Assembly: GCF_023973825.1 (NCBI RefSeq)
Contig: NC_090126.1
Span: 682,001-746,000 of the forward strand
Direction of reading: 5' to 3'
DNA length: 64,000 bases
DNA from: Plasmodium brasilianum
Taxonomy: Eukaryota; Apicomplexa; Aconoidasida; Haemosporida; Plasmodiidae
Part shown: positions 22,867-59,050 of the stretch, in pieces
How positions within the stretch are numbered: the stretch's first letter is position 1
Layout of the letters: the number at the start of each line of letters is the position of its first letter
Made by a program: the position numbers and the translations under genes
Notes under the pieces: generated by a model
Told to the model about the DNA's origin: nothing
The model's database searches: none
What the model saw: the letters and a program-made list of their open reading frames with translations, nothing else

Positions 22867-22898
<32 letters not shown>

Positions 22899-26540: not shown

Positions 26541-26577
<37 letters not shown>

Positions 26578-32385: not shown

Positions 32386-34974
32386 TGTATTTACCTATAG
32401 GACGTGGAGAAAAAAACTCGAATTAAAACAATTAGTAAAAATAAAAACTGCAAATTGATGCAACCAATTTTGAACGAACGAAGCGAAGACAATTGTGCAA
32501 TAGACAAGCGTACGCCATGGTGCACGGAGTAAATGTAGAAACATAAGCAAACAAATATAAATACATACAAATATAAATACATACAAATATAAATACATAC
32601 ATATGTAAAAACAAACATATATAAAAACAAACATATATAAATCCATACATGCACTTATACATATAAATCTATATTTTAATTTTAAATTTAATTACAAGAT
32701 CGATAATGATCTTTTCGAATGACATGTCGTTTATTAAAGTGTTTTACCTAGTATAACTTGTCAAATGTTTTGTGGTATATTTTTCCTATTCTCTTCTTGT
32801 GCGTTATGTTTTGCTTTTTTTTTTTTTTTTACGTCTTTTATTATGTACACGTTCAGCGTTGAGCCATTACTCGAATATTCGCACAAATTCTTAGAAATTT
32901 TTTTTGTTTACTCAAAATATTATATATACGTCCATTAAACACATATATATATATATATACATGTATGTGTGTGTGGTTAAATTATTACATCTTCTTATTT
33001 ACCTGCTCTTTACTAGCTTTGAGCAGTGAGACTTCACTTTTTTTTATTTTCAAAAAGTGCGGTAATAAGATTAATTCCTTAATATGTTTGTGGCAGTTGT
33101 TATATTTTCTTTTTTTTATTTTTCCTTTTAACTTATTTTATTCCTTTTTTTTTCCGAATAGACCAAATGGCGTGTTATTTTTATGTGATATATTTTTTTT
33201 TAACTTGTTAGACTTAACGTTTTATGCAGAAGTATATTTACCTTCACGCATTTTTCACTAAAGCTGTATGTCGGTGCCTGCAAAAGAGCTTCTACAGGAA
33301 CAAATGTCTGCACAGATATCTGAACGAGTAAACAACTTAGTAATTTATTTTATTTTTTTGATAACTTATCAATTTGTAAATTCTGCACTCGTTATACTTC
33401 AAAGAGAAAAAATTAAAATAAAATACACTTCAACTTGTTTAACATAACTTTATGCAGAGGCATTCGTCAGCTTTCTTCTATATATGAAAAAAGGCGAATA
33501 TACTATATATGTATGAATTTATGTACAAATGCATGTATGCATGTAATACTTATGTTACTACAAAATAGGATGATGAAAAAGAAAATGCTTTAAATTGTTG
33601 ATTCATTTTGTTGTGTTCAAAAGTTTGCACGTGAAACAGGTAAAAGTAAGTAGCGTATGTAAATGTGCGCAAACTTATACTAACACATTAAATACATACA
33701 TATGTGAGTATATATGCAGGTGTTTACCATAAAAAAAAAAATTTTTTTCCTCATACCTGATAAGTTTATGTTATATTAACTAATATAGAGAAGAAGTTAT
33801 TAAGGTATATTTTTTGTGAATAAAGGTAATTCATATTGTAAAAACGAATACAGCTTTCTTATTTTGTTTAGCTTAACATTAGGTTTATATGCTTAAAAAT
33901 TTTTTTTTTTTAAAAACTTTGACGTTGATTATTTACAAAGATTTGTTACTTTTATTATTTTTCATTTGGTTGGTGCTTTTTCGTATTATTCTCTTTCCTT
34001 ATTTTCTTTTTCTTTTTTTATTATTTATCCCTTTTTCCCAAATAAAGCAAAAAAAAACAAATTATAAGAATCAAATGAATGTTTTATTAAAAATAATATA
34101 TGTGTATTTATAAGTTTGCCAAAAGTCTTCTTTTCGTTCATATGTTATTTATAAAATTTTTAGTAAACTTTAAAATTGGGGAGGTATTTAAAAGGAAGAT
34201 AAAGAACATAAGGAAGAAAACATACGTTTATGCACATATAAAATAAACATCTAAACCCTATATATTACTTATTATATAATATATATTTTTTTTAATTATA
34301 ATTATGTACAAATGTGTTGTAAATTTATAAAATGAATGAGGGTTATAAGGATAAATGCTCATCATTTTGTAAAGTGAAATAAGAGAAAATATAAAAGTGG
34401 TATAGTGTAACTATATTAAATCCTTTTTTGTAGATTTTTTAAAATTTTGGATTTAGTAGAAAACCAGAAAGGAAAGCAATTAAATGTATTTAAGAGAATA
34501 TTATATACATTTATATATATAATGTACACTTTTAAGTACACATAGGAATGTATATTCAGAGTATCTTAAGTTTTGTGTAACGAAATTACCAAACAGCTTA
34601 TTCACAAATTTCTCCTGCTTCATATTGTTCATATAACCTTGATGTTATGATTTATTTGTAAGCCAGTGATGAATAGCTGCATTTTTCAAAACCTTAATAA
34701 GCGGTACGGGGAATTCTATAATACCTTATTTTGATATGGTATCATAGTTAAGTAAGCTTCACCATATGCTGAAGTTATGTATGGGTATATGTATACGTAT
34801 ACATATATGTATGTATATATAATTATACGTATACGTTTAAGTTTTTCGATTTTCATCTTTTCCTTTTACCCAGCCTTCAGTTTTCCGTGCTAAAGAAAAA
34901 TTTGAAAAAAAAGTAGTAATAAGAAAGGTTCTTCCCATTGAAGGTAGCATAAAATATTACACTGAAATAATATA
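32386..34974. other. Intergenic region between divergent MDR7 and L1
   Basis: About 2.6 kb between two divergent starts. Near 32545-32600 a 16-bp unit ('caaatataaatacata') repeats about three times in the MDR7 5' region, followed by 'acaaacatatataaa' units. Frames near 32965-33261 and 33889-34113 are Phe/Leu-rich without features. No gene or RNA is recognised. Confidence 0.6.
32545..32645. repeat. 16-bp tandem repeat upstream of MDR7
   Basis: Three near-identical 'caaatataaatacata' units followed by 'aaaacaaacatatata' units, within about 260 bases of the MDR7 start codon. Open in all three minus-strand frames by chance (Met/Tyr/Ile/Cys-rich). Confidence 0.8.
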
Positions 34975-37929: not shown

Positions 37930-40900
37930 ATGAAAAATGCATACAAGAAACAAATCGATGTTACATTACATATAAAGCAAATCACAAATATTGTAGAAAA
38001 TCTTCTGAAAAATAATGCGGAGGATTCATTTTATATAAAGCAGGTAATTTATTATTTTTATTTTATTTATTATCTTACGCATTATTCTATTGATGATGAT
38101 TCAACACAAATTTTGCACAGGAATAGAACAAGGCTATTTTTAAAATTAAATGAACGATTAAAAATTATAAGCACAGCAGTTCTATACATAATTAAGAATG
38201 ACATATTTTCATACAATGATATTATTTTAAACAAGGAATTTGTAATATTAGAAAATTATGAAAATGAAAATTATGTTCTTCGAAATTACTTAGCTAGTGT
38301 GGAGAGAGGAAAGAAAACACATTATATAGATTTCTTAAAAGTAAAAGTAAAAAATGAACAGTTATTACCCTTTATGACTATAATAAGTTGCAGTACTTAT
38401 AATAAATTAGAAAACCTATACATCTTTATGGTTATAACTGCATACATAATTTACACTTATTTGGAAAAATACAATGTAAGAAAAGGGGATCTATTAATAG
38501 ATGACATGTACATGTACATCAGTGATAAATATAGAATGAATGGCTACCTTATATGTGTTAACAAAGTAATAAATGTTGTTATAAGTTTTTATGTTAACTT
38601 GTTAAATTTGGGAAAACATGAACTGATAAGTGTACTTACTGGAGGGGGGTGCAACGTAGCCGAAAAAAGAAGCGCTAACATGGGTAACAGTGGAAGCATT
38701 GACCATTGTGAAAATAAAAGCCTTAACAGCAATAGTACTAATAGTGATAATAACAGCGGATTAAGACGCATCAGTAGAAAAATTGATGATAAAGACAGTA
38801 ACAATGACTACTATAATGCATGTGAGGGTGAAGCAAAATACCGTAAAGCAGCTATTGATTGTGTCTATATAGAAGAATTCACAGACAAGATTTGGATATA
38901 TAGAAAGTTGAAGTATCTGTTTAAAACCATATGCAATGGTTTATTATTAATTTTAGAAAATTTAGTATGTGTTAATTACTTAACGTTTATTACGTTAGAT
39001 GTTTTTGTATTAGTTTCTAAATATAATCCCTCCTTTATAGTAAAAAATAGGAAGATAGTAATAAACTTATTTTGTAAATATGCTTTAAATTCACAATTAT
39101 TTTTCTTTTTTAAAAATAAGTTTTATGGCATTTTTTTTCAAAATGATAAATTATTAACGTTAGAGATTTTTTCATCTACGGTCAATTGTATTTTAGAAAA
39201 ACTAGACAATAAATATGATAATATTCGTGATTTATTTCTTTTGCTGTTTTTCTATATTATTTACATTAAGCTTTATTTAGTAGAAAAATTGAAGAAAAAT
39301 ATAAATTGTGATCGTTTTGATCATTTTTTTCTTTTGGCATTAAATTCTTTGAACAACTACCTATGTCATTTAATAATAATTTGGAATTTTAAGAAGCCTA
39401 TTTTTAACTCCCTTAATGAATTAGTTAGTGAATATATAGGTGTATACATTTTGGCAGTAAATAATTTCCTGATCCAAGATCAAGTAATATTCTCAGAAAA
39501 AAAAAAAGAAGAAAAGGAAGTGGCAAAAGAAATAGAAAAAGGGCAACTTTTTTTAACTTATTTTCCCAATGAAAATGTAAAAGAACAACGCGTCAGCTAC
39601 ACCCATAGAAGTAAAAGAGATTATGAAGGGTATATTCATATAATGAAAACGCTAGAGATTACAATGAAAGAGACTGCCAATGTACCAACAGTTGATCACT
39701 CTTATATAGAGGGGGGAAATGAAGGAACATTAAATTATGAAAACAGATTAAAAAAAAAAGATGAGGGACCAAGACCAATTAGCAATGATAGGAATTCTTA
39801 TAACTTGATTAATAACAATACTGGGGATGATTCTTTAGAAAAATATTGTAATAATGGGTCCATATCAAAAATTTGTAAAACGTTGATACGAGATTTTTAC
39901 AAAATCATAGCTGTATGTACGTATAAAACGAAAGACAAAAAAAAATTCTTTGAAATTGTCATAAGTTATTTTAAAAAAATAAATCCCATACAAATAAATT
40001 TTGTGAAATATTATTTTATTAATATCATACTACCTTTTAAAAAATTTCTTAATGATATTTACATAAAAAAAAGACTATTTTATATATGTAGTTTTATTAT
40101 GCGAAGAAAAAATTTTGAAGAGGTAAAAAAGTACCTCTTCAGTGAAATTGCTTTTTTATGTTATTATATTTTGAATATGTTAAGTATATTGAAGTATTCT
40201 CCATTTCTCTTTAATTATTTAGAATCTAATCTAAATATCATTGATATTAACTATTTGAACAAATCTTTACTTGATCAAGAGTTTAAAATACACTTTTACA
40301 AATTTTATAAAAATAACATAGACTATTTTTTCTTACTTTTGAATTGTTGCAAAAAGGAATATTTTGTTATGCCAATAATAATCTATAACATTTATATTTT
40401 TTATGAAATAACAAAGAATATTTCCTTCTACTTTGCGTGTAGCAAATCATGTATAAATAAATTATTCTACTACTACAGTTGTACTAATTTAATTAAACTT
40501 TTTTTATTATTTTTCAAATTTTTGAAAAAAATTTATTACTACAATGAGGAAGGCAATTTTATGAAAATTAACCAAGTAGACAACTCCATCAGGAATCATT
40601 ATTACGGGCAAATAATAACTTATTTCATAAAGCATATTTTTAAAAAAAAAAAAAATTTGCTCATTTTTTTATTAACTTTTTTGTTGATTTGTACCTATAT
40701 AACAAGCTAAATAAAAGTGTCTCTTTTGTCTTCCTCTTTTATCAAAATTTTGATATACGCATGTACCTGTCCCTTTTGAGGGTTTTGTTTAAATTTTCGT
40801 TTTTCCTTCATAGAAGGGGAAAATGGATATACGCAGTAGAAGGAATATCAGAAAAAGGAGAAGAAGGAGTGGCATGCAAAGAAGAACTATACCAAGGTAG

Positions 40901-43900
40901 TGCAAACGAGGAATTAGAGAACAGAAGAATGTATCTCTTAACCAACGTAATTAACGATATTTTTTTGGAATTAAAATTTGATATACTACAGGAAAATTTT
41001 TATGAAATTATTAAAGACAGGAAGGAAAAAATATGCATAAAAAATCATTATAAGTATAACAAAATTCATCTATTTATTTTAACTTTACTAAAATCGGATT
41101 TATTGTACAGCCGTTATAAAAATGAACACAAGTTTGATCTAAACATAAATGATTTCTTTGTTTATTTTATTCTGGAAAAGAATTCCTTTGTTTTCAATTG
41201 TTTACTTGCAAAGTCATCTATTCATTCCTATAAGGTAATGAAATTTTATAAACGATTTCTTTCTTATTTTAAGGTAAATATAGAAAAAATTGCAAAAGAA
41301 AAAAAAAAAGAAAAGGACGATATGGGTACGTTTTATGAGGAGAAAATAGATAAGAATAGGAGTTGTCATCTTACCATATTGAATTTATTTTTTAAAAAAT
41401 TCAAGAATATAAATGTGCGTAATGGTTATATAGGGCCAAATTACTCAGTATTTAGTGGTGTGTGTAGCTGGGGAAATAGGGGTATATACCAAGAGGACGA
41501 TCCACCGTATTATTGTGAAAGACTATCTCAGTGCGTCTTAGATAAAGTAAACCGTGGAAGACATAGGACCAAAGGGGGTGAAGAAGTAAGGGAAGTGGAG
41601 AACAAAGAAGAAGAAGTAGAACAACAGCAGGAACAACCGCAGGAACAGCAGCAGGAACAACCTCAGGAACAACCGCAGGAACAACCGCAGGAACAGCAGC
41701 ACGAACAACCTCAGGAACAACCTCAGGAACAACAGCAAGAACGCCAGTTAAAGCAGATCCCCATGAAAAAGATGAGAAAAAGCAACAAAAGAGATGAAGT
41801 AAGTTTTAACGCATACAACATAATTTTCCTATTTTTGGGATATAACTTAATACTGAATTGCTTGAAATATAAAGAGATGAATAAAAAAGAATCATTTCTT
41901 ATGCTTGCTAATATGTTTGATATGTTTTTGAATAAACTAAAAAAAGGAAATAATTTAAGAGAACATAAATGCTTATTAAAAAATGCAGAATACTTTCTTA
42001 ACCTAATTTACATAATAGATGCTTATCAATTAAAAATAACAAATAAGTTAATAACTATTCTTAATGAGGAAGATAATAATTATTCGGTAAATTTTCCAAT
42101 AAGTTCAGTATTACTAAATAATAAATTAGAAACACACAAAAAAAATTATGTAGATAAATTTTTTTCAAACAGTGTGTACAATTTTTACTTAAATAACATT
42201 CATATATACAAATGTTGGAAAAATTTAACAATTTATAAAAATATAATTTTTAATGACAATTTTTTTTATTTTAATACTTGCACAGTTCTTTGTATATTTG
42301 ATCATGTCTTATATGAATTAATAGAAAATATTAAAAAACAAATAATCGAAAGAAGAATGGAAATTAGTTGTAGAATTAATCCAGAACACGCAGAGCAACA
42401 GAAGGATGCTTTATATAAAATAATCGATAATTACATACACATAATTTACATAAACAATGTTTTAACTTTCATATCTGTTTACTCAAAAGAATGTTGTTAT
42501 ATATATTCTCTATTTGATTTTTACATAAAAATTAATTCTTTTTTCAATGAAATATTTCAAATAAGTTACGAGTCGTGTAGCATTGAAAATGTATCATGTA
42601 TGAAAGTGAAAAATTTTGAAAAAAAGTTAACAGATGATATGATCTTTGATTTACCCACAAACAGTAAAGGATATGAAAATATTCAAATGAATAGTGATAC
42701 AAATGATATTATAGAAAATATTTACACCTTTTTAATTTCGGTTCTTCCATTTTTCCAAATAGATACAAACGAAATTATAAATTTATATATTGAATTTACT
42801 CATGGTAATTATATGCATATAGTAAAGTACTTTGAACATAACAAAAGGGTTTTACTTATAACTGGTAGATGTTTATATTTTATATATGGAGATGAAGCAA
42901 TGAATATTAATTACAATGAAGAAGTGCTATCAAAATTTTCATCTAATATAATACTATGTAATAAGTACTTTTTTACAAGTATAATTTACATTTATATGCA
43001 GAGTTGTATATTCGTGCATAATCCAGTGCACATATATTATTTATTAAAAAACATTACTAGTATAAACAAAAATATATTAAGTCCAGATGTGAAAAAGTAC
43101 TTACTAAGTATATACTTCTTGAAGAGGAAGGAATTTTATTTTTGCAGAATGTTCGCTCAATGTGTGTTCTGCGATCTGGATAAAAGGGATGGATTGAGAA
43201 GCGAACAGAATGAAGAGCAGTCGAAAGAACGGAGGAACGAGCAACCGAACGAATCACCTAAGAAGGATGCAAATTTTACATATGACCTCAAGTCATACGA
43301 TGATTTAATAAATTTATATTTTATGAACATATCCTTTTGCACTGAAAAACAGAAATTAAGTACTTTACTGGTAAATCTAAAAAAAAGTATATACTCCTAT
43401 GAACATCACCTAAATAGGCGAAATGAATTCTTAAACTTAGTTGCAGGTTACTGTGAGCATAATTTATCCTTAGTTCCAAGTTATTTACGCTGTTCATACG
43501 CAGAAGTTGGTAAGGCAAGAAAAGTGCAACCCACTAATGATAAAACCGGAAACTGCACTGATAATAATCATTACAGCACGCACACCCACACCCACACCCA
43601 TAACAACAACAACATCAATAGCAATAGCAATAGCAACGGCTACACTAACTTTACTTATGAGAAAAAGCCTAAAAATAATGCGCTTTATATAAATATATTA
43701 AATAAAGACCCTTTATTTATCATTAAGTATGTAAATAAGAATAAATTAATTTTCGAACAGGATAACGAATTGAGGGAAGCGAAATTTTTTTTTTACAAAT
43801 TTGCTAAATATTTAAAAGAAAACTCTTTTTATTGCTATGAGTTTTACATTAGGAGTAAACTATTTTCTGCTTATATGAATCATAATAATGAAATAAGGGA

Positions 43901-46900
43901 AATGGTTACAAGAAGTAAACTCAACTACTCAAAATATAAGGTAAATCCTTCCTACGATATTTATTATTCAAACGACAAAATTACGAATTATAATAAATGT
44001 AAAGTATATCCCATTACAAACAGCGGTAGCTTTGTTAGACGCTTCCTTAGTAGTGATAAGAAAAAAGACATGTTAGCATTTTTCATAATAAGTAAGATAT
44101 TAAAGGGTATACAGAGTAACGATATATTTTTTCCAGTATATTTATTACTAAGAAGCAGTGCTGAATATAAAAAATATATGGAAAAATATATGTTTCTTTT
44201 TTCATTAAGTGATAGAACACATAACATGAGCAAATATTTTACTAGAATGAATCTAATGAATTACAAAGACATAAATAGTTTTCTATTTAGGCATATATGT
44301 ATAAAAGCATCATGCCGTTCGGATGACATACTAAACAAAGTAGTTATTAATTATTCCATAATGAATCAGAATTACTTAAATTTTATATATCATGTATTAC
44401 ATAAAGGAACAGCATGTAGATATTTTAATATGACTCAATCTTATATCAATTTTAGCAATTATTATGTAAATGACATAGAAATGATAAATAATAATACTTC
44501 ATATATCCATATGTGCACTAATTGTAGCAAAATAGCATATAATAATTTTAGAGATAATTTCTTTACACATTTATACTGTGTATGCATGAATGAACAATTT
44601 TTAATAATAAATGAAATTCAAAGGAAAAAAGTCAATAGCTATTATGCACTTTGGATTGATAGTTGTAAGAACAATTTATTTTTGTTAAAGTTATTTTCCG
44701 AGTTGTACGATGAAGACAAAAAAAGTAGAGGTGGAGGGGAACTAAGAGATTCGTGTATAGATATTTCATACATAATGAGACTAAAAAAAATTAGGAAGTT
44801 AATAATAAAATTTAGCTCCTGCAAGGAGAAATTTTTTGATTGGGACTATGTGAAATCGTATTTATTTAGTAACTTTGGGGGTAATAGAGACGATGAGAAG
44901 GGAAATGAGCAGTTAAGTACGGAAAAGGGGAGTGAAAAGGGAGATTGTGAGAAGAACTACTGTGAGAAGTACGACAAGTATGTTGGCCTAATATTAACCC
45001 ATCTAACATTTTTGCAATATGTAAAAACGTTGTTCATGTACAATACACTTAACGGTATGCTTAATTCCTTCCGATTTACATTTAATTATAATATTAACAA
45101 ACAGTGTAATGAGAGCGGAGACTTATACATAAGAAACGATTTTAAAGTAAAAAATAAGTTATTATTTCTTTTTAAGAATTTATTTTTTTTTTATTATGAA
45201 AAAGAAATTTTGAAAAAAATGCTATTATTAACACATTTTCAATCAGGAGAAAAGGTTAATTTAATTAAGCAAGACGAAAAAAATATGAAGTCAAAATATA
45301 AGACTAGTACTTGTTCGGGTTTGTTTGAAAAGTACACTATAGGATATACCGAAACGACTCATGACGGTAATTTTTATTGTGATAGTAATGTGATATATGA
45401 TGATAGACAGAACGAAGGGATTATACACGTAGCGCGATGTATTAGCAGTACTAGTGAAAATGAAAATTTTAACGAAGTAAATTCTCTTAAGGGAAACGTC
45501 TCAACAAAGTTCGACTTACACATTTATGACTTCACTGCGAAGATTCCTGTACATATGTATGCTCTTATTTATCGAAATATACTAAATTATTTTTTTGAAA
45601 AAAAAGAACATACCAATTTAAAAGTTATCCTTTTTTCCCTGTTTCTCCATTTGTACAAAAAAATACCTGAAATAATTTCAGTACATTTAACTGCATTTTA
45701 TAAAATGCATATATATAATAAACATACAAGAAGAACGAATAGATTATTCTTCTCCATGTTGTGCACGGAAGGCGTTAGTGGTATGGGTAGTGGTTTAGGT
45801 AGTAGTATGGGTAGTGGTTTAGGTAGTAGTATGAGTAGTGGTGTGGGTAGTGGTATGACTGGAGGTATGGTTAATATCATGAATAATAGCATGGATAATA
45901 ACACTGGTGGAGATATTGGTAGCAGTAGTGACGATATATTTGAAAAAAAGGGGGAGCATAAAAACGTAATAAATGTATGGGAAAAAAGACCTAATATAAT
46001 AAATTCCCATTTTGAGGGAAAGTATTCGGGGGTTGAAATAGAATTTAACAAAGGTAAAGAAATAATAAATGAGATAGGTGATATTTTTCCATATTCATCT
46101 TTTACAAAAGGAAGAAATGTTTACATGGAAAATAACGAGTTTGTTAACTCATCACATAATGGCGATTTTCATGATATATATAAAAAAAAGAATAGGACCA
46201 TCTCTCAATTTTTTATGCGCACAAAAAATTCAAATTTTTTATTTTGTCTAGACTTTAACAATAGTGTAACAAATTTGTTAAATTCTATTGAGTTAATTTT
46301 TTCAAGAATATTTCATACAATATTGTCTTACGTAAAATACACAGTGAAGGTTTATAAAAAAAAAAAGAAATTTTTTAGCTGTATAAGAAAAGGAAAAGAG
46401 AAAAAAATAAGTAAAGAAGAGAATGCAGTTGAACAGATAAACGGATTCATTAAAATTAATGTAAATGAACCATGCAAGTTAGATGAGTTATGGAAGAATA
46501 AATTTTTATTTTTTTTAATTTTCCTAAATGAGCTAGTTCTCTATTTGAATAATGAGTGTGAACAGAGTAATCCATTTATGACATATTTTTTTTTTCGTAT
46601 GCATTTAATGTCAACCCCTCACACATACATTACTAGGGGAGTTGAATTATATACCAAGAATTTGATAGAAGAAGAATTAAAAAAAATATATATAATATTT
46701 GCACATTTCTACTGTTATTTGTATATAAAAAAGAAAATAAAATTAACGAAGGATGTAGAGGAATGTGTAAAAAAGCATATGTCCATGACAAACAATTTGA
46801 GAGGGAATATCCTTGATAATTTTCATGCATTTCATTTTGAAATGTTAATAGAATTTTTATCCAATTTTACCATTTTTCTAAACAGAATTATTCAAAACAG

Positions 46901-49900
46901 AAACAAAAATGAGAATATTGGTAATAGCTTCTTTAGTGATTTTATAAAATATAAATCCTATTCATCAGTAAACGAATTACAACATGTTAATATATATATA
47001 GAAGATAAACAATCACACAATTTAATATCATATAATAAAATAGCGAATTTTTCTAAAAGCGCGTACACAATTACCATTGATAATAATTCTACAAAAATTG
47101 TTACCATTATTTTTATGAACGGTCAGGTAATTTCTTATCGTGTTAAATGTGGACAAGATTTAAGAATAGATAAGTACATTTATGACATTTTTGATTTCAC
47201 ATTTTGTATACTCGGCAAGGGGAAGGTAACTGGAACTACTCCTTATGATAAAATTCCATATAATAATGTTTTTAAAAAGGTAGAAAATATTGTAAAAGTT
47301 AAAGTAAATGGAGGAAGAGGAGAAGCAGAAGCAGAAGCAGAAACAGAAGCAGCAGCAGTAAATTATAAAAAACGCGTGGATAACGAGCATTTTGAAGAAG
47401 GGAAAACACCATTTTTTTTCTTTTTCCATCATAGAAGAGGTGCGCCTATACATTTACCTGATATAATATATTTATCGAACATGGTAGGTATAGTTAAAAA
47501 GAATAAAAGTGTAACCACCATTTTGTCTTTAATAAATGAGGAGGATAAAAAAAAATTTGACAAAAATTTCAATGAGAAATTCTTAAAAAGGGTTAAGAAG
47601 TATGATAAGGAGAGGGTTCCTCTCAAAATATACAGTAAACATATTAGCAGTAATTTGTTGTATGATAATATTAACAAACAAAGACAAAATTATAAGGAAG
47701 GGGAATTTCGAGATAGTGTAAAAAAGCAAATGACCCCACTGATGACAGAAAAACAACATAAGCATAGAATTAAGAAAGTAATGAAGGAGAGGATGTTAAG
47801 AGAAGTTTATTACGAATTAAAAGAAGAATATGAAAAATATATACATAGTGTTAAACTATACATACATATGCTAAGTAATAACAATAAAGAATATTTTGAA
47901 AATAGAAAAATGTACACATCATCTTTAATAGTTAATAGTTGTATAAATTTTATAACAAAAGTTGGTCATAGACATTTAAGTAATATTTTATATGATTACA
48001 TTAATCACGATATTATAAATATTGACCTGAATGTATCATTTCAAAGGGGTATTTATTTACGTAAACCTGAAGTGGTACCCATAAGAGTAACAGACATTTT
48101 TTGGAATGCTACAATTTTTAATTTTTCTAGCTCTTTTTTTATTTATAATTTAAATGAAATATCATCTATTTTGTGTGAATATAAAGACTACTACTTAAGG
48201 AATTTTCATCAATTCTTTTTTTATCCTTTTTATTATAACGAAAGGAAAAAAAATTTTGACTTATTGCATAGTGCTGACTTCCTTTTTTGCGAATACTCTA
48301 TAAATAAGAATTATCATCCAGAAAGGAATTACGAAGCACATCTTTCAGATGATTTCTTGTCGTTAATTTATTCCATGTCCAACTTATTTAATAGTATATA
48401 TATGAATCACACCTTCATAATTAAGAATATAAATGAGTGTAAAAAGGGCATAGGAATGTGTCCACATTTCTACTCGACCTATTGCAACAATGGAAAACTA
48501 AAGATGAAAATAGCTAAACTGTTAGGAAGCCAATTGTATCTCCTCCATTTTGGTAAAATCATAAACAATTCGGATCATTATGTTAAGAAGGAATTTTCAA
48601 AAATTAGTCGCTCTTTGTGCAAGCACGAATTTTTAACAAAACAAAAAAAAAAAGAGGACGAGAAAGGTTTGAAATATAGAACGTTATATATTCAACAGGA
48701 AGAAGCATCAGATAAAAAGCAATGTAGTATTGAATTACAAGAATATTCTTTTATTCTCCCAAGCTCAAACTTTAATGATAGCATTTTTAATGATACAGAA
48801 AAAGATGTTATAGAAATTAGCTTTAAAAAGGATGCAAAAAGTTTGCTAAAAGAAACACCGTTATATAGTTTAAATAAGTTAAGCAAAATATTTAAATTAA
48901 AACAAGTAATTAATAATGTTTATTTGTTAAAATGCGAAAAATACACGAAAATTTTATTTAGAATTTATTACAAATTTAATTCAGTACAGCAAATACATAC
49001 AAAAAATTTCCCTTTTGCAAAAATGTATATTGAAGAATGTGTTAGAATTAATTATAGCAATTATAACAATGATGATAAAAAGGAATATATAAAAAATATT
49101 ACACAAATATTATGCCATAATTTCTTTGTAATAGAAAGTATGGTAACCCAAAATAGGAAGAAAAGTTATGAGTATTATATTTACTTCATGTCTTTTCTGT
49201 TTTATTCCCTTTCTTTTATTAATTTAAAAAAAATTATAAAAAAATATATATCACATAAGACAAAGAATTTTAGGAAATATTATTTAAAAGAACATTTTTT
49301 TTTCCCCATAGTAAAAGGGGGATATTTGAGAAAAGTATTAACATACATAAGTTCATATCTTTATCATATAAAATATAACAATATCATATATTATGTTTCA
49401 AACCTAGCGGATCAGTATAGTAAAAAATACTCGAATAATATGTTATTACCTAATGAAGAAATACTGAACGAACAGAAGCAGGTTGAATACTGTTTAGAAG
49501 ATGCTACACATGTTATAAACAGTAAGCCTTTTGAAAAAATAAAAAATTACTTAAATATTATTAATGAACTAATAAAAAGTATAGATCATATGTTCCATAT
49601 AATTATAAGAAGATATACACGCATATTGAATGTAATTATAACGTATTCTACCATGTTTATATTCCTGTATTTAAAAAATAGTCATATGAAAATTGAAGAA
49701 AGGGAAAAAATATTTTATTCTCATTATAACAATTTTAATATAAAATATGATTTTTTACATGAACGTTTTAATAATTTTCCCTTAAGAGAACGCATTCACA
49801 CGTATTACATTTCTTTTAAAATTTTGTACATATTAAAATACATACAATATTTCCTTTGCAATAATTATTACAAGTATTATTCAGCCGTAGTGCAACTAAT

Positions 49901-51127
49901 AGAACAGTTCGGCAAAGGAAGAAGAGACGAACCTTTTTACAAAAAGAATTGCACTAAATGTAGCTGTGAGACAGCTATAAAATTCGTGAGAAAGGAAAAG
50001 AACTACAAAACAATATACAAACGGGGTAGAGAAAAAAATACGGGAAAAAAAGGGGGGGAAATATTGTTAGAAAAATGGAATAGAAACAGCAAGAAAAATA
50101 GGCATAAAAAATGGAATAAAAAATGGAATAAAAAATGCTCTAGGCACCTTCACAAGATAACTGCTAAAAGTAATATTAAGCAAATTTACGCAATTTCACA
50201 TTCATTCCATAATGCAAAAAATATTACGAATTATATCAACTTTTTAATGTACATTTTAAGCAAAAACAGTATAAGGAAAAATATTATGAAGCAAATAAGT
50301 CGTTTATATAAACACATAAAATCTTTGTTCAGTATAAGCATATCAAGTAATGAAAAAAAAAAAAAAATCAATATTGTACAATCGTACCTTAAAATAACAA
50401 AATTATATAAATTTTATGATATGAATATATATAATAAGAAAAACATAACTCATAATATATATAAAAAACAAAAAAAAGACTTATTTTTTTACAAACCATA
50501 TTATTCATCCAAAAGGTTTTTATACCACGAAAAAGAATTCAGTTACTCAGAAGACAATTCATGTGATAGTGTAAATTATAATGAACCAGAAAATGTACGA
50601 AACTTTCGAAGAAAATTAATTAGAAGAAGTAATAATCGAAGGTGTAATAATCAACTTTTAAATACTAAGAAAGAGGGAAATGTTCACAGGGAAAACATAG
50701 AAAGAAGTAGAATAAATACACATGCAATTTATTTTGCACGAAAAAAAAAAAAGATAGCATAATATCCTTTGAGAAATTTCAAAATATAAGAAAATTACAC
50801 CTTGATATAGAAGATCAGAAGTTATGTTATAACGATTTAAATATGTTATATTACATGAATAATTTTCAAAATAATACAGGTGTTCATTATTTTAATGAAA
50901 AAAACTTTTACAAGGGGGAAGATTATGATGACGTATTGTTATCTTCGAAAAGTTTGATATCTTCGAATTATTATATACAAAAAGATTTAACGAAAGAAAA
51001 AAAGAAAAGAAAAAATGATAATTTATACTTTTTAAGTAAAGGAAATATATTTCAGCATGTATATTACGTGTCTAAATCGTCAAAATATTTGTCCAAAATG
51101 CATCAGGGATGGACACCCTGGCTGTAA
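37930..51127 (+). CDS. Giant SMG1-like PIKK (kinase-FATC) protein, read in three frames
   Basis: I read one gene of about 4,400 codons. Its frame is interrupted at two poly(A) runs, 40642-40655 and 50741-50752. Segment 1 opens at ATG 37930 and would stop at 40710; segment 2 stops at 50762; segment 3 ends at 51127. The first 3,000 residues look helical and Asn/Lys-rich, as expected of HEAT/FAT regions, with Gln/Glu, Gly/Ser/Met and His/Thr repeats. The kinase domain lies at about 47020-48250: lysine segment VISYRVKCGQDLRID, LSNMVGIVKKNKSV, the catalytic loop GHRHLSN, and the metal Asp in NIDLNVSF followed by LRKPEVVPIRVT. The extreme C-terminus, SKYLSKMHQGWTPWL, is a FATC tail. About 1,030 residues separate catalytic loop and FATC, the SMG1 arrangement; ATM, ATR and TOR have the tail almost directly after the kinase. 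SMG1 phosphorylates UPF1 in nonsense-mediated decay, but that role here is inference. Confidence 0.85.
40642..40655 (+). other. First frame break of the giant gene (14-base poly(A))
   Basis: Upstream frame continues to a stop at 40708-40710; the downstream frame is already open from the run itself (reads FAHFFINFFVDLYLYNKLN). The offset equals one missing A. Splice-site pairs tried around 40691-40814 (donor gtacct; acceptors at 40706, 40717, 40780 and 40813) do not give a consistent phase. Confidence 0.75.
41620..41750 (+). repeat. Gln/Glu repeat (QEQPQEQQ) in the giant gene
   Basis: Twelve-base units of 'caggaacaaccg' type encode QEQP/QEQQ for about 40 residues. The alternative frame on the opposite strand is a Leu/Phe/Arg-rich chance ORF. 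Confidence 0.88.
45776..45875 (+). repeat. Gly/Ser/Met repeat in the giant gene
   Basis: Units of 'ggtagtagtatg' and 'ggtagtggttta' encode SGMGSGLGSS-type sequence for about 30 residues. Probably a flexible loop. Confidence 0.85.
47020..48250 (+). other. PIKK-type kinase domain within the giant gene
   Basis: N-lobe: TIIFMNGQVISYRVKCGQDLRID (about 47100-47175), with the Lys of RVKCGQDLR corresponding to the ATP-binding Lys of family motif KGxEDLR. The lobe linker region PDIIYLSNMVGIVKKN is at about 47458-47505. Catalytic loop GHRHLSN is at 47964-47984, with His replacing the usual Asp at 47967-47969. The metal Asp is at 48024-48026. The activation-loop end, LRKPEVVPIRVT, is at about 48058-48095. 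The C-lobe includes a YKDYYLRNFHQFFFYPFYY block comparable to the family's FxYDPL segment. An acidic Glu/Ala repeat and other low-complexity sequence (about 47230-47440) is inserted in the N-lobe. Confidence 0.85.
50741..50752 (+). other. Second frame break of the giant gene (12-base poly(A))
   Basis: The long frame stops at 50762 just after this run, while the frame carrying the FATC tail is open from the run (reads KDSIISFEKFQNIRKLHLD) to 51127. The offset again equals one missing A. Confidence 0.78.
51056..51127 (+). other. FATC tail of the giant gene
   Basis: The last 23 residues end in KYLSKMHQGWTPWL followed directly by a stop. The spacing of Leu, Met, Gly-Trp and terminal aromatic/hydrophobic residues is the FATC consensus (NLxxMYxGWxxWW-like) found only at the C-terminus of PIKK proteins. 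Confidence 0.85.
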
Positions 51128-52538: not shown

Positions 52539-53438
52539 TTAGCCAAATATTGAAAAATGTAATAACTTAAAATAAATAAAATAAATAAATATTACTAACG
52601 TTATAGCGGCTAGACACCAAGTGAATTTCTGTTGCTTCACATTATGATATGTTTTCTTTAGTTCCTTTGCGCTATTAAAGGCATTTACATTAGTATCATA
52701 TACATTATTATTCAAGATTTCAATATTTTCTTTTTGAGTAAAAACAAGATTAGCTAAATCCTTGAAAACTTCTTGTGCTTGTACCACTTGGCCTTGTATT
52801 TTTTTAATTCCCTCAAATCTTTCATTAGCTATTTCATGTTCAATTAAAAGATCATTTTCATTAAATTGATCTAATTCATAATCATATAAATTCGAAGATT
52901 CAATAAAATCATCATTATTTACATAACTTTTCTCTAAATTTAAAATAAAATTATCATTGGCAAAATCACTGGAAACAAATTTATTATTTTTCTTTTTATT
53001 TAAAGAAATGTTATTTATGTTATTATTATAATGCATCTCACCATTTTCAATATTTGGTAATTCATTAGCTGCTTTTTTTACATTCACAGATATATTTTCT
53101 AATTTATTTACTTCATTTTTAAAATGTATATTTAACTTTTCAAAAATATACTTTTTTTTTTGCTTTTCAAAAGGATTTTCAGCAAATTTTATTTCCCATT
53201 CACGAAATAAATTTTCTGTCTCGATTACTTTAACATAAATTTGTTGTATTTCTTCATGTAATGCTTCTATAATTCTTTTTGATATTAAATTGTTTTTTAA
53301 GTTTTCTAAATTTTCTTCTGCATATATCATATTTTTTTTAATAAGCAATATATTATCTTTAATTTTCTTTTCATTATTGTCTTCTTTTCCTTCCTCTACG
53401 TATGTAATCTTTGCCCTTTCATAATTCTTATATGACAT
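52539..53438 (-). CDS. Syntaxin-like Qa-SNARE
   Basis: Membrane-fusion protein of the secretory or endosomal system. The start is taken at the ATG 53438 (MSYKNYERAK); the open frame upstream has no ATG. The product is 299 residues. A helical N-terminal half includes IIEALHEEIQQIYVKVIETE, compatible with an Habc bundle. The SNARE motif lies at about residues 205-265 (ANERFEGIKKIQGQVVQAQ, then VFKDLANLVFTQKENIEIL), with the zero-layer Gln in LVFTQKE. A C-terminal anchor (CLAAITLVIFIYFIYFKLL) ends a few residues before the stop, the normal tail-anchored layout. The pattern FKDLA..V..Q.E.I..L.NNV is typical of Qa (syntaxin) rather than Qb/Qc SNAREs. Which syntaxin it is (plasma membrane, Golgi or endosomal) cannot be told by eye. 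Confidence 0.87.
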   Translation of the reverse strand: MSYKNYERAKITYVEEGKEDNNEKKIKDNILLIKKNMIYAEENLENLKNNLISKRIIEALHEEIQQIYVKVIETENLFREWEIKFAENPFEKQKKKYIFEKLNIHFKNEVNKLENISVNVKKAANELPNIENGEMHYNNNINNISLNKKKNNKFVSSDFANDNFILNLEKSYVNNDDFIESSNLYDYELDQFNENDLLIEHEIANERFEGIKKIQGQVVQAQEVFKDLANLVFTQKENIEILNNNVYDTNVNAFNSAKELKKTYHNVKQQKFTWCLAAITLVIFIYFIYFKLLHFSIFG

Positions 53439-56329
53439 TTTTTTCACACATTTATGGGCGTTCAAGAGGGTGTAAAATTGTGTAATAAAAAACAAAAAAA
53501 AAAATAAAAAAGAGAAATAGAGAAGTGATGTGAAGTTATAAAATGAGAAGAGAATCGATGAGATGGTAAAGCTGGAAAATGGGATGAAAAAAAAAAAAAA
53601 AATATAAAAATATTTTTATATATTTTTCATAAACCAAAGTATATGGTTAAAATGGGCATGCACGTGTACTAATTTATCTCGGACAGAAACATAATTCATA
53701 TATTATTGACAAATGCCAAATAATACACAAAATGAAGAAAAAGGAACAAAAAAATTATTTGTCCTGTATTTTTTCAGCTGTATATCCATAAATACGTTAT
53801 ATGTACATGTATACATGTATACATAAATATATATATATACATAAATTCGTAAATATCTGCATAAATGGGTAAATAATGAAAAATTGAATGAACGAATATG
53901 TATATTTATATAATTGTGTATATGTATATATGTATATGGGTATATGTGTATATGGGTATATGTGTATATGGGTATATGTGTATATGGGTATATGTGTATA
54001 TGGGTATATGTGTATATGGGTATATGTGTATATGGGTATATGTGTATATGGGTATATGTGTATATGTGTATATGTGTATATGGGTATATGTGTATTTGCG
54101 TATATGTGTATATGGGTATATGTGTATATGGGTATGTGTATATGGGTATATGTGTATTTGCGTATATGTTTTTATGGGTATATGTGTATATGGGTATATG
54201 TGTATATGGGTATATGGGTATATGTGTATATGGGTATATGGGTATATGGATATATGGGTATATGGGTATATGGGTATATGGGTATATGGGTATATGGGTA
54301 TATGGGTATATGGGTATATGGGTATATGGGTATATGGGTATATGGGTATATGGGTATATGGGTATATGGGTATATGTGTATATATGTACATACAAATACA
54401 CCAATTTAACTGAAGTTGAGAAAATAATTGCAGTTTTGCGTTTTCTTTTATTCTGCAAAAATGCATAAAAAATGTGAAGTAAAATATAAGTATGGAACGC
54501 AAATAAAATAAAAAAAGAAGGAAACAATTCCGTGCAGTACTGTACATACATATATGCGTATATGTATATATATTTATGTAAATATAAATTTATTTATACA
54601 TGAAAAATTTATACGCTGGTAAAAAACGCTAACACATGTTAACGAAAAAAAAAAAGAATATATGCAAATTTTATTGTAATCAGAAAACAATTTCATTTCT
54701 ACATTTGAATTATTTTCTATAAGCACAAAATTTTAAAAAAAACTTAAAACATACAATTTATTTTAAAGGTAAAAATAAAAATAAAATTTTTAAAATAAAA
54801 CAAAACCAATAAAAATATGTATAACCCGTCCCATAAAAAAGCTATTAAATGAAAAAGCAATTACGCTAACCCAAAATCACCTAATGCAAAAAAATTATTT
54901 ATATATTCGTTAAAAATGTCAAATTATTAAAAAAACACTGAAAATAATTCTAAAATAGGCGGACTGTACATTTATGCGCAAATGTACATTTATTTGTATA
55001 TATACGGCCAAACCATATACTCACTCGTAAAATATATATAACTGGTATTTTTTTTAATTTATTTTTTTTTTTAACATAGTAGCACGCAATCCAACACGTC
55101 CTTTTTGTCAACATTAACGATTTTTTGCGATATATTAAATCTCAATATTTCGAAACAGAAAATCTTAAACACTTCTTATAGATAAGAAGAAATGTATACC
55201 ATTTTATATATACACCATATAAAAGGATTTAAAGCTTCTTTATGTAGTAAAATTAAAAACTTAAAAAATTTTGTTTCCTTTTTTGTAATATGCAGAATTT
55301 GGTTAGTAAATGTTCTACGTTAATGGATAAAATAAAAAAAAATATAATAAGTATGTTAATGATAATCATAATAATGATAATAATTATTATTGTTATAATA
55401 ACAATCTTAATGGTATTGACAGTTTTAACAGTAATAACAATCATGCTTTTATTTGTACTTTCATTTAAAAAAAAAGGGGAAATAACTGTTATGTGCATAA
55501 ATGAAATACTGCCAACTTTTCGGTATTTAGAATACATATGTTAAAACAAATTTAATAATAAAAATGTTTATACAGTTTTACTTATCATTTTGCTGTATGT
55601 AGTAAGTCCCATTAAAGAAAAACTTCTTTTAAATAGTTTAAGACAAACAAAAACAATATGATATTTTTTGTTAAACAAAAAAATAAAAAAATAAAATGAT
55701 ATAAAATTAAATTAAATGAAATAAGATGATATAACTTGAGGCAAAAATAAACGTAATGGGTATAGTGCAAAAAAATAAAATCGGATGAAGTAATATTTTT
55801 AATTGCGCGTTATAGTGTTTTTTTTTTTTTTTTAAAGAAAAAAAAAAATGAAAAAAAACATTAGCGTTTTTATAATTGCAGCCAAATGGAATTTTGTTCA
55901 AAATATTTTTATTACATTGACAAAATTATCAATAATAATAAAGATAAATTTTTTTCTTGAAGTGTTATAAAGACAACGTAGAAAGACAAAAAAAAAAAAA
56001 AAAATAAATAAACAAAAATAAAAAAAGTAAATAAATAAGGAAAAACAACAATAATAGTATGATCTATTTTCTATTAAAATGTAAAGAGTTTACTGTAGAG
56101 CAACATCACAAAAGAATTCTATTTTCATGGCAGTGTTAGATACAAGATAATAGCATTATAAAAAAAAGTAGAGAATTATACATAAAGAAAGCTATAGTAA
56201 AATATATTAATGAATAACTAGGTTGTTTATTTTTTCTACTTTAATTCTTTCCTTAATAAAATTATTTCATAATATATTTATTTATATATATGTATTATGT
56301 GCATACACATGTTCTCTATTTTTATGCCC
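53439..56329. other. Intergenic region between SNARE and CCCH genes, with GGGTATAT minisatellite
   Basis: About 2.9 kb, tail-to-head relative to two minus-strand genes: the 5' region of the SNARE gene and the 3' region of the CCCH gene. It contains the octamer array at 53938-54375. A small frame at 55290-55544 (+) encodes 84 residues with a hydrophobic Ile/Met/Leu/Thr centre; I do not accept it as a gene. Nothing else is recognised. Confidence 0.6.
53938..54375 (+). repeat. GGGTATAT octamer minisatellite (G-rich on + strand)
   Basis: The first half (53938-54065) is a 16-bp unit, GGGTATAT plus GTGTATAT, with GGG tracts exactly 16 bases apart. The middle is irregular. From 54256 to 54375 there are 15 GGG tracts exactly 8 bases apart, i.e. 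pure (GGGTATAT)15. Because 8 bases times 3 gives 24, long stop-free frames appear on both strands, rich in Tyr/Met/Gly/Val or Tyr/Pro/His/Ile. These frames are not genes. Confidence 0.95.
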
Positions 56330-59050
56330 TCAATTTAAGCTACTTAAATTAACAGATTTAGAAATATTAAAAAAATCATTATTCTTCTGATTTTTTGCCC
56401 AATCATGTGACATAAAAGGATATGCAAACTCGTTAAAGTTCGCGTTGTTACTCCAAATATTCTGATTATTATTGTTTTCTTTTTTATATTTTGAAAAAAC
56501 ATTATTTAAGGTATGGTAATTATCATCATTGATACGCACATTGAAATTCTTGTTGTTACCGTTATTCTCATTATCCTTACCAATGTTGTAATAATTCTTA
56601 ATAGTGCTATTATTGTTATTATTACTATTACTACCACTAAAGCTGCCGCTGTTATCACTAATGTTACTATTACTATTCTTAAGAAGAGTATAGTTAGTAA
56701 CGTTGGGAATATGTGTATTATAAGCGGTTGTGTGCAAATGATCATTTAACAATATACTTTTTTTAGGTAAATAATTGTCATTTAAGTGCTTAACAAATTT
56801 GCTACTTTTTTTACTTGAGTAATTGTAGTTCTCATTATTTTGTAATTCCGTAGAAATTAAATTTCTTATTTTTTTTAAAATATCCGATTTCTCATTAGAA
56901 AATAATAACAGCTTATCTAGGTTCATACTACTGTTACTTAATTCTGTATTTTCCCTTAAATTTAATTTTGCATTCTTTTCTCTCACACCACTTGGTGTAT
57001 TGTTCTGTGTTAAATTTAAATTGTTAAAAAAATTATTATTGCTACTGTCACTAAAAATACTCTTGTTATCACTAACACTAAAGGAGCTCTTGTTATCAAG
57101 GTCACTGAAAATACTCTTGTTGTCACTGCTACTAAAATCCATCTTGTTATCACTTCCACTAAAAGCGCTCTTGTTATCACTTCCACTAAAAGCGCTCTTG
57201 TTATCAATTCCATTAAAAGCGTACTTGTTATTATTACCCATAAAAATGCTCTTGTTATCGCTTCCACTCAAATTGCTCCTGTTATCACTTCCTCCAAAAT
57301 TAATCTTGCTACTGCTATTTCTAAAATTGTCATTGGCACTAACATAGTTGCTAATATCACCAGTCCTGTTGTCTATCCATGGATCTTCTGTTATTCTTTT
57401 TTTTAACTCCTCTTGTTTTATTTGCTGTACTGGTATCAACCTTTGCTGCATATTTCGAACTCCCTGACTTGACAAATCATTAGGAGGACAAGTAAATGGC
57501 CTAAAAATTCTTTTAGAATAAAATTCTTCTACTTCGTTTCCTTTACTATTGCTACTGCAAGGCAAAACATTAGATTTTTCATAAGAAAAGTTTTCACTAT
57601 AATAGTTTTTTTTTCTCATCTTTTTTTCTTCCTGTTCATTATTCATTAAGTTTTGTTCAAAAGTTTTCTCTAATAGTTGATCTGCTTCTATTTGATTAAT
57701 TGGATGTTTTTTATTATCTGCAATACTGAATGAACTAAAACTGGGGTATATATTTTTTAACGTTTCAAATGATTTCATGTTGCACAATAAATTTTCGTAT
57801 TCGTTACTAATAAATTCATTATTATTCTTAACTGAAAATATATCCTTACATACACTTGAGTTATTTGTATCCTTTACATTTGGAAACGAACAGACATTCT
57901 GTGAAATCAAGATATCATCTATTGTTTTAATTATACTATTTAAATTGTCGTCTATTTTAGTTGTATCATCAAAATGAGGTATACTATTATTTGTATTTTT
58001 CTTTTCATTAGTAAATAAATAATTATCATTTGGTTCTTCTGGAAACAAATATTGTGTTATATCCTCCTCATTCTCTTTACAACTACTAGTTTCTGGAAAT
58101 GTATTGCACCCAAATTTTGTTTTGCTATTTTCTTTCTTTATTTTCTCTATCTCATCTTGTTCCATCTTTATGTGTGTTTTATCTTTTATAATGGACTTTT
58201 TTAAAAGGTTATTTTCATTGAGTAAATATTTAATAACTTTTGTATATTTATCGTTATTCTCTATAAAAGTAGACAAAGCCATATTCTCAATTTTGTCAAC
58301 AACATCTTTAATAGAATTCGAATTATTCTTATCACCAAATGTAAAATAATTTTCTGTGATATCACTGTCTTCATTTTCATTTGTCTCTTCCATAAATTCA
58401 CTAGTAGACTCAGATATATCTAATTTACTTTTCCTCTTTGTTTTTTCAGTATTCACATTATCATTATTTAACATTAAAAACTCTCTACTTTTTTCATAAG
58501 ACGAAGAAACATTTGTAGTTTCCAACGAGCAGTTTATAGAATAATCACACATATTAAAAGAACATGTAGAAGCTGTTCCTTGTTTTAAATCGGAAATATT
58601 TTTTTTACTTTTATTTTTACTCTTCTTGTTATATTTCGTACTTTCGAATATATCCATATCTTCACTTGTTTTTATATCTTCTACACCATGTGCAAATCGA
58701 CACTTATTCCCATTAAAGCATTTCCCCTTTCCCCAAAAACTGCAAATTGTGGATTTGTAAGTAGCCAAATGAACACTAGGTTTTAGTGTGTCAATATCAT
58801 GAGCAAATTTACAGTTTACATCTCGGCAAGGCATTTTTTTTTTTATATAGTCACACAATTTGGTATTTCTTAAATCTGGCATTGGTTTCAATTCATCAAT
58901 ACTATGTGCATAATGGCAATTCGATTCATTTAGACAATAATTTTTATTTTTTTGAAAAGGGCACATTTTCGTTTTGAAGAATTGTTTCTTTATAAGTGAT
59001 AACGTTTCTGATTGTGTTGGGGACATGCTCTTCTGATTTTTGTCATTCAT
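56330..59050 (-). CDS. Triple CCCH zinc finger protein, probable RNA-binding
   Basis: Three CCCH fingers lie near the N-terminus. C30-x8-C-x5-C-x3-H49 begins CPFQKNKNYC. C66-x8-C-x4-C-x3-H84 begins CDYIKKKMPC. C103-x7-C-x5-C-x3-H121 begins CSFWGKGKC. The first two are each followed by a DELKP- or DTLKP-type linker (Y/F-AH, two to three residues, then L-KP), and the third by GVEDIK, a spacing seen in apicomplexan triple-CCCH proteins. CCCH fingers of this kind usually bind AU-rich RNA, which would suit post-transcriptional control; that is inference. The remaining 780 residues are Asn/Ser/Lys-rich without other domains, and include a nonapeptide repeat. The ATG at 59050 is the first in frame. 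906 residues, one exon. Confidence 0.9.
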   Translation of the reverse strand: MNDKNQKSMSPTQSETLSLIKKQFFKTKMCPFQKNKNYCLNESNCHYAHSIDELKPMPDLRNTKLCDYIKKKMPCRDVNCKFAHDIDTLKPSVHLATYKSTICSFWGKGKCFNGNKCRFAHGVEDIKTSEDMDIFESTKYNKKSKNKSKKNISDLKQGTASTCSFNMCDYSINCSLETTNVSSSYEKSREFLMLNNDNVNTEKTKRKSKLDISESTSEFMEETNENEDSDITENYFTFGDKNNSNSIKDVVDKIENMALSTFIENNDKYTKVIKYLLNENNLLKKSIIKDKTHIKMEQDEIEKIKKENSKTKFGCNTFPETSSCKENEEDITQYLFPEEPNDNYLFTNEKKNTNNSIPHFDDTTKIDDNLNSIIKTIDDILISQNVCSFPNVKDTNNSSVCKDIFSVKNNNEFISNEYENLLCNMKSFETLKNIYPSFSSFSIADNKKHPINQIEADQLLEKTFEQNLMNNEQEEKKMRKKNYYSENFSYEKSNVLPCSSNSKGNEVEEFYSKRIFRPFTCPPNDLSSQGVRNMQQRLIPVQQIKQEELKKRITEDPWIDNRTGDISNYVSANDNFRNSSSKINFGGSDNRSNLSGSDNKSIFMGNNNKYAFNGIDNKSAFSGSDNKSAFSGSDNKMDFSSSDNKSIFSDLDNKSSFSVSDNKSIFSDSSNNNFFNNLNLTQNNTPSGVREKNAKLNLRENTELSNSSMNLDKLLLFSNEKSDILKKIRNLISTELQNNENYNYSSKKSSKFVKHLNDNYLPKKSILLNDHLHTTAYNTHIPNVTNYTLLKNSNSNISDNSGSFSGSNSNNNNNSTIKNYYNIGKDNENNGNNKNFNVRINDDNYHTLNNVFSKYKKENNNNQNIWSNNANFNEFAYPFMSHDWAKNQKNNDFFNISKSVNLSSLN
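57040..57305 (-). repeat. 27-bp tandem repeat (DNKSAFSGS nonapeptides) in the CCCH gene
   Basis: About ten units encode variants of SDNKSIFSG or SDNKSAFSG. The 'ctcttgttatcacttccact' core is easily seen on the plus strand, where it opens a chance Leu/Ser-rich frame. Confidence 0.9.

Follow-up and report, generated by a model that had tools for sequence, protein, structure and literature searches.

The window analysed here is a stretch of 64,000 nucleotides from Plasmodium brasilianum (contig NC_090126.1, positions 682,001 to 746,000), which lies on contig C13 of the genome searched (31.4 Mb, 43 contigs, ~25% GC). At 37930-51127 on its forward strand it carries a gene of about 13,000 bases that is spread over three reading frames, and whose product, with the three frames summed and left unjoined, comes to ~4,400 residues. 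The initial annotation had presented this gene as a giant SMG1-like member of the phosphatidylinositol 3-kinase-related kinases (PIKKs). Taken with some reserve, the comparisons below favour a PIKK pseudokinase that leans towards SMG1 and would serve as a scaffold, rather than an active UPF1 kinase.

The active site was examined in an alignment of the window protein, its unbroken full-length orthologs from P. ovale curtisi (P0004, 3781 aa) and P. vivax (P0005, 4131 aa), and four reference kinases (SMG1, Tel1, TOR and ATM), with the catalytic residues numbered as in mTOR. At the ATP-binding Lys, the catalytic Asp, His and Asn, and the metal-binding Asp, all four references read K-D-H-N-D. The Plasmodium rows read K-H-H-N-D (window), T-N-Y-N-T (P. 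ovale) and T-D-N-N-D (P. vivax); none of the three has the full set, and the Asn is the sole catalytic residue, out of five, that is identical across the three species. The codon for the ATP-binding Lys is located at 47145-47147 (+) and specifies Thr in both orthologs. The hinge position (47499-47501, +), which is Trp in SMG1, TOR and ATM and Phe in Tel1, is Lys in the window and in P. ovale and Arg in P. vivax. The catalytic loop HRHLSN (within VGHRHLSN; 47967-47984, +) retains Arg, His and Asn and has His in place of the catalytic Asp; the corresponding loops are NRYLCN in P. ovale and DRNLIN in P. vivax. The lysine motif, the metal-binding Asp and LRKPEVVPIRVT were found at the positions where they had been annotated, and the annotated catalytic loop is present as well, albeit with the substituted Asp.

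The metal-binding Asp and activation segment DLNVSFQRGIYLRKPEVVPIRVT (48024-48092, +) fall within the most conserved 100-residue block of the main open frame, P0002. This block surrounds the catalytic loop and is 63% and 65% identical to the two orthologs, the highest values in P0002. A conserved block of the C-terminal lobe (C-lobe) in which the catalytic residues vary would be the opposite of what is expected under selection for catalysis. Because these residues diverge in each species despite the conserved surrounding block, a pseudokinase is suggested, and the protein is likely to be incapable of phosphotransfer. Weighing against this, P. vivax retains both its catalytic and its metal-binding Asp, while the window protein retains the Lys, His, Asn and metal Asp, and weak or unorthodox catalysis from such residues is conceivable.

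The kinase-like domain occupies 46995-48323 (+; P0002 residues ~2118-2560). The excised kinase piece was matched by PF00454 at 33.4 bits (cut-off 27.1, E 5.9e-8), whereas a Pfam scan of the entire 3372-residue frame left the kinase undetected. In a sequence search of the PDB, 27 of the 29 rows were chains of mTOR, SMG1, TOR2, Tel1 and ATR (E 2.6e-8 to 8.3e-6) and the other two were unrelated (E 0.37 and 7.8); in a second search, made with a profile, all 27 rows were PIKKs. The PIKK-like kinase domain of the initial annotation is confirmed by these matches. Orthology to TRRAP was considered and ruled out, as the TRRAP of this genome is encoded on another contig (C14) and no TRRAP chain was matched in either PDB search.

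The FATC-like tail that had also been annotated is located at 51077-51124 (+) and ends in GWTPWL. PF02260 (FATC) scored 15.8 bits in the frame scan and 17.2 bits (E 0.2) in the genome search, under its cut-off of 25.3. This tail was the sole match in the genome at E<=10, in a search that was blind to the tail of TRRAP, and the profile also rang once below cut-off in 14 prokaryote controls, which places the score alone near noise. The tail is accepted as a putative FATC through its position at the very end of the gene and its conservation in the two orthologs, which have like C-termini and in both of which the kinase and the FATC end lie within one protein, and not by score. The FAT domain (PF02259) gave no match genome-wide, although the TRRAP gene was likewise unmatched, so this search is without power here; the FRB domain (PF08771) gave no match in the Pfam scans of the window frames. 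Judged from its sequence, the protein is a real member of the PIKK superfamily.

The PIKK family to which it is closest was assessed with full-kinase references comprising three plant-type SMG1s, three Tel1s, seven ATMs and one TOR; the SMG1 reference P0006 is 74% and 82% identical to the two named-plant SMG1s. The window protein scored 59.8-62.5 bits with SMG1, 41-50 with Tel1 (best 50.1), 41-45 with ATM and 39.2 with TOR, a lead for SMG1 of 9.7-12.4 bits, and SMG1 was also preferred with the C-lobe alone (53-55 bits). For P. vivax the full-kinase scores were 52.0-55.1 (SMG1), 40-54 (Tel1), 41-45 (ATM) and 42 (TOR), and for P. ovale they were 35-39, 18-37, 28-31 and 37, respectively. The top match outside Plasmodium was an SMG1 in both kinase-region database searches, which used the window protein and P0005 as queries. 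When the SMG1 kinase was searched against the whole genome the gene was best at 56.3 bits, with TRRAP second at 33.4; with TOR the gene was again best (39.5 bits), by a narrower margin, and with ATM it came behind Vps34 (43.8 against 44.7). SMG1 was the sister group in all six trees (support 65/31, 87/84, 79/77, 90/87, 64/36 and 89/91), of which tree 1 (65/31) is of the C-lobe alone and unresolved and tree 6 (89/91) leaves out P. ovale. ATM was rejected in two of the six (p values of the approximately unbiased test, p-AU, 0.066, 0.028, 0.265, 0.031, 0.085 and 0.118), and the activation segment is without the one-residue insertion present in TOR and DNA-PK.

Other results count against an SMG1 affiliation. 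On the P. vivax full kinase, Tel1 P0008 (53.9 bits) is level with SMG1, and the P. vivax C-lobe scores Tel1 P0008 (52.8) and eel ATM (47.7) over SMG1 (45.4-47.3), as the P. ovale C-lobe does human TOR (39.5), and others, over SMG1 (31.6-32.8). TOR was unrejected in all six trees (p-AU 0.356, 0.145, 0.212, 0.106, 0.309 and 0.351). These trees overlap in most of their data, include few references and have ATR and DNA-PK as C-lobe only; ATR was tested in two of them (p-AU 0.246 and 0.082) and DNA-PK in one (0.086). The Plasmodium branch carries ~2-3 changes per column and the composition of the Plasmodium rows was flagged as odd; long branches were flagged for DNA-PK and Vps34. Profile-profile comparison with hhalign scored ATM at 100.9, SMG1 at 95.6 and TOR at 78.8, and the PDB profile search ranked mTOR first (41.2, with SMG1 at 32.1). 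Nothing was detectable beyond the kinase when the N-terminal half and the tail were compared with SMG1 in hhalign (0.1% probability). The same test beyond the kinase detected SMG1-TOR (95.3%) and ATM-TOR (94.9%) and left SMG1-ATM undetected, so this is weak evidence against close kinship. AlphaFold models built from alignments of 7 and 10 rows gave no usable structure (mean predicted local distance difference test, pLDDT, 38.7 and 43.5). The SMG1-like identity that had been annotated is favoured by the trees and the window full-kinase scores, and is tempered by the unrejected TOR and by an ATM rejected only twice. On present comparisons the nearest family would be SMG1, as a leaning that is never decisive, and descent from the SMG1 branch has roughly an even chance.

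The kinase and the FATC tail are separated by a long spacer (48324-50759, continuing into the C-terminal frame P0003; +) of ~900 residues, the length of which is kept in the orthologs. The catalytic Gly is 1037 and 1067 residues from the end in the two intact orthologs, 1575 in the plant-type SMG1 P0006, and 167-216 in TOR, ATM and two Tel1s. The spacer is of SMG1-like length, although this stretch is 508-538 residues shorter than that of P0006 and the spacer is without detectable similarity to the SMG1 insertion. Of the two features for which the gene had been likened to SMG1, the long kinase-FATC insertion stands, and the N-V...R part of the activation motif is unconserved in the orthologs (NETFQKGLYKNPPELVPLRIT; GLSFQRGLYLMQPEIVPIRIT). 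The insertion is reported in all Diaphoretickes SMG1 proteins examined and as absent from several of Amorphea (Causier 2017, PMC5709506). Within the spacer, a conserved block at 50244-50543 (+; P0002 residues 3201-3300) is 62% and 46% identical to the orthologs and, like the C-lobe block, speaks for constraint other than on catalysis. Whether the spacer could be mere plasmodial filler was considered by comparison with the plasmodial TRRAP tail, which is shorter (436 residues, landmark to end) and more polar (Asn, Lys, Asp, Glu and Ser, NKDES, share 0.53; hydrophobic share 0.26, against 0.35-0.40 in the spacer); yet the window spacer is no less repetitive, with a low-entropy share of 0.16 (0.11 in the TRRAP tail, 0.07 and 0.03 in the orthologs).

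The annotated bounds of the gene agree with its frames, from the first ATG at 37930 to the end of the C-terminal frame at 51124 plus the stop codon (51125-51127). The N-terminal frame P0001 (37930-40707, +) matched no Pfam domain and is 38-42% identical to P0005 and 44-50% to P0004 over the main aligned stretches, which are collinear. The main frame P0002 (40644-50759, +), with 3372 stop-free codons, encodes the kinase-like domain together with the greater part of the spacer and is 42% identical to P0004 and 35% to P0005, while P0003 (50711-51124, +) matches the ortholog C-termini at 54% identity over 129 aa (P0004) and 40% over 141 aa (P0005). The gene had been taken as one continuous frame, which is not the case, as the frame shifts at an A14 run (40642-40655, +) and again at an A12 run (50741-50752, +). 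At the first of these, P0001 is aligned to P0005 until residue 796 and P0002 from residue 836, with ~49 residues of the window frames and 39 of P0005 left unaligned; at the second, the alignment to P0004 stops at residue 3620 and resumes at 3655, with 34-35 residues unaligned on each side. All three frames align collinearly to both orthologs, with variable stretches of ~35-50 residues beside each break. An intron at either break was considered, and a small one is unlikely, since the alignments resume collinearly beyond each break. In a survey of 204 kb of the genome for same-strand pairs of overlapping frames of at least 130 aa, an A run of at least 12 was present inside the overlap in nine of 12 pairs (seven of ten without the gene's own two), the TRRAP gene included. 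Because such runs recur in other frame overlaps of this assembly, homopolymer assembly error is the likely cause of both breaks, likelier than decay.

Within Plasmodium, the matches of the kinase-region searches (7 proteins listed for the window query, 11 for P0005) were confined to P. ovale curtisi and P. vivax. In the same database a control search with ABCB7, which is a neighbour of the gene in the window, matched P. falciparum, a gorilla parasite, P. berghei, P. yoelii, P. vinckei, P. coatneyi, P. fragile, P. inui, P. gonderi, P. relictum, P. gallinaceum, P. ovale wallikeri and Hepatocystis. The kinase-region searches require shared 5-residue words and similar length, and divergent or fragmented models would escape them; the apparent absence from P. 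falciparum and other Plasmodium is a lead, not a result. In P. vivax, P0005 is probably on the same chromosome as ABCB7 (P0024).

The gene is not wholly new to the literature. A divergent extra phosphatidylinositol kinase (PIK) of P. vivax, PVP01_1309200, has been reported beyond the three of P. falciparum, a species in which it is without a counterpart; its transcription apparently extends over the whole asexual cycle, and PVP01_1404700 was set aside for its low score (Adderley 2022, PMC8960227). PVP01_1309200 is probably the P. vivax ortholog; going by chromosome numbers, it would fit this gene and PVP01_1404700 would fit TRRAP on chromosome 14. In the part of that account consulted, neither a PIKK subfamily nor a FATC, a spacer or a loss of the active site is described for PVP01_1309200 (PMC8960227). 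Of five Plasmodium species surveyed by reciprocal best hits, P. vivax was the only one reported to have ATM (Causier 2017, PMC5709506), and this "ATM" is probably the same gene. SMG1 is described as absent from all alveolates examined (PMC5709506, PMC10449492) and TOR as lost in the apicomplexan lineage (PMC5371417); a review credits T. gondii with a Tor2/mTOR homologue (PMC10543664). The proposal of PfPI3K as the P. falciparum ATM (PMC11036802) and the PIKK/ATM and PIKK/FRAP genes of Sarcocystis (PMC5371900) have no direct bearing on this gene. In the literature searched, mostly outside subscription journals, no paper was found that likens the gene to SMG1 or presents it as a pseudokinase of the PIKK family. 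The gene is partly known, as the extra P. vivax PIK, and what is new here is the active-site loss and the SMG1 affinity.

Of the other explanations, a degenerate descendant of TOR, ATM or ATR, with a long spacer of independent origin, is the one to be taken most seriously, although it is somewhat doubtful. TOR was never rejected (p-AU 0.106-0.356) and neither was ATR in its two trees, ATM was best in hhalign and mTOR in the PDB profile search, the published P. vivax ATM is probably this gene, and the plasmodial TRRAP tail has been lengthened too. These families are of the same superfamily and have similar C-lobe scores, but their Gly-to-end stretch is short in TOR, ATM and Tel1, with catalytic residues intact in the reference rows. 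Set against this descent are the SMG1 lead on the window full kinase, the two trees that reject ATM (0.028 and 0.031), the lack of the TOR/DNA-PK insertion in the activation segment, and a TRRAP tail that is polar where the spacer is more hydrophobic. The two frame changes, the fast evolution (35-42% identity to the orthologs) and the presence in only some Plasmodium species could together mean a decaying pseudogene in which breaks and catalytic losses are both erosion. This is improbable, given 3372 stop-free codons at ~25% GC, breaks that both fall on long A runs like most other overlaps in the assembly, orthologs that are uninterrupted in two species and conserve the C-lobe block as well as the C-terminus, and the reported transcription of the probable P. 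vivax ortholog (PMC8960227).

It is a little less probable still that the gene encodes an active SMG1 ortholog which has UPF1 as its phosphorylation target and is the missing regulator of nonsense-mediated decay (NMD). The initial annotation had guessed at a missing regulator, the stronger reading, or "an unrelated job for a PIKK", and the latter was the better half of the guess. An active SMG1 would fit the position in all six trees, the SMG1-like length of the C-terminal insertion and the reported phosphorylation of PfUPF1 by an unknown kinase (McHugh 2023, PMC10449492). However, the catalytic residues vary by species and are lost, and no relative was matched in P. falciparum, the very species with reported UPF1 phosphorylation, with the ABCB7 search as control. 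UPF1 of the present genome (C8:351157-356616, -), which has a long Asn/Ser-rich C-terminal tail, contains nine S/TQ sites against 6.2 expected from composition, three of them in the last ~310 residues; this is no marked excess and would lend little support to an SMG1-type substrate. PF15785, which is present in SMG1 matches, was found in neither the window frames nor the orthologs in Pfam scans, and SMG8/9 (PF10220) had no match in the genome, its control being silent as well. Raptor_N likewise gave no match in the genome with a silent control, and the EST1 control was silent too, so that the searches for the SMG8/9, Raptor and EST1 families are uninformative. Least credible by far is that the gene encodes a PI3K- or PI4K-type lipid kinase, even though PF00454 spans both classes and the database label of the orthologs is PI3K/PI4K catalytic domain. 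No lipid kinase was among the 29 PDB rows, a FATC-like tail is present, and Vps34, the sole lipid kinase in the trees (four of six), did not group with the gene. The PF00454 genome search gave seven matches at six loci, which are Vps34 (C10), PI4K-beta (C6, in two pieces), PI4K type II (C8), TRRAP (C14), this gene (C13) and a locus on C5 that, judged by its frame, is probably PI4K-alpha; the lipid kinases are thus encoded at other loci, and the PIKKs found in the genome are TRRAP and this gene only.

If the protein is indeed an SMG1-leaning pseudokinase, an active PIKK ancestor, most likely of the SMG1 branch, would have lost catalysis, and a docking surface would be formed by the C-lobe, activation segment included, by the long spacer and by the FATC tail. 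These parts would be kept for partner binding and for folding by the PIKK chaperone route, of which the subunit TEL2 is encoded on C7 (35.9 bits, cut-off 23.6), and the protein would act without catalysis in the mode of TRRAP/Tra1. A scaffold role is reasonably probable, and may lie in NMD, in chromatin or in some other process. The gene resembles SMG1 in its nearest full-kinase scores and tree position, its long insertion, its activation segment and its C-terminus (GWTPWL, against GWTPWI in P0006), and differs from it in the degenerate active site, the absence of PF15785, and an N-terminal half and spacer without detectable similarity. With TRRAP/Tra1 it would share a PIKK fold without a working active site, a FATC and the likely scaffold mode, but TRRAP is a separate gene and the window protein retains a recognisable catalytic loop. 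In P. falciparum, TRRAP/Tra1 is represented by PfTRA1, PF3D7_1303800 (PMC11036802).

Several further features of the window and genome were observed. The TRRAP gene (C14:253243-277302, -) is an open frame of 8020 codons that has WFPWF at its end, preceded by a polar tail; upstream lies another frame, of 713 codons, and the two overlap at an A16 run, so the gene may be longer than the 8020-codon frame. Other same-strand overlaps with A runs of 12-24 are at window 10395-10431 (-), C5:1175259-1175310, C5:1176488-1176539, C8:1492671-1492707, C10:888659-888797 and C14:241742-241775, whereas the overlap at window 3061-3146 (-) is an exception, with T9. The recurrent overlaps would be either homopolymer errors of the assembly or genuine slippage sites. 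The gene itself contains tandem repeats at 41619-41742 (Q/E/P-rich) and 45776-45857 (G/S/M-rich), and an E/A repeat at 47321-47358; the last is part of an insertion within the N-lobe region of the kinase, at which place the P. vivax insert is long and different. Upstream, window 15183-32394 encodes a WD40 protein, a cyclic nucleotide phosphodiesterase, porphobilinogen deaminase and ABCB7. The nearest rows of this ABCB7 include Plasmodium proteins, with identities of 65% (P. ovale wallikeri) and 64% (P. vivax); among the 16 rows listed besides the window's own, none with a species name is above 66%, so that the window species is distinct from them. Downstream, between a SNARE-like gene (52542-53615) and a CCCH zinc-finger gene (56333-59104), an array of ~30 copies of the 16-base repeat TGTGTATATGGGTATA (53915-54383; 93% matches) leaves several frames open.

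In the literature TRRAP is the one PIKK said to lack enzymatic activity (PMC8625110), and a second non-enzymatic member, derived from another PIKK body, would show that scaffolding by itself can maintain the fold. It is possible, though on balance it must be held rather unlikely, that, contrary to its published loss from alveolates, SMG1 was retained by P. vivax, by P. ovale and by the species of the window as a giant non-catalytic scaffold, a second kind of PIKK pseudokinase beside TRRAP, and dropped by P. falciparum and the rodent parasites. If this were true, the human-infecting Plasmodium would differ by an entire PIKK, and the body of SMG1, without its catalysis, may be used in NMD or in some other process linked to mRNA. 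A PIKK that occurs in these three species and is unfound in P. falciparum would be a clean lead for species-specific biology. It would also call for caution in the repurposing of PIKK inhibitors, because a normal ATP site would probably be lacking in this protein.

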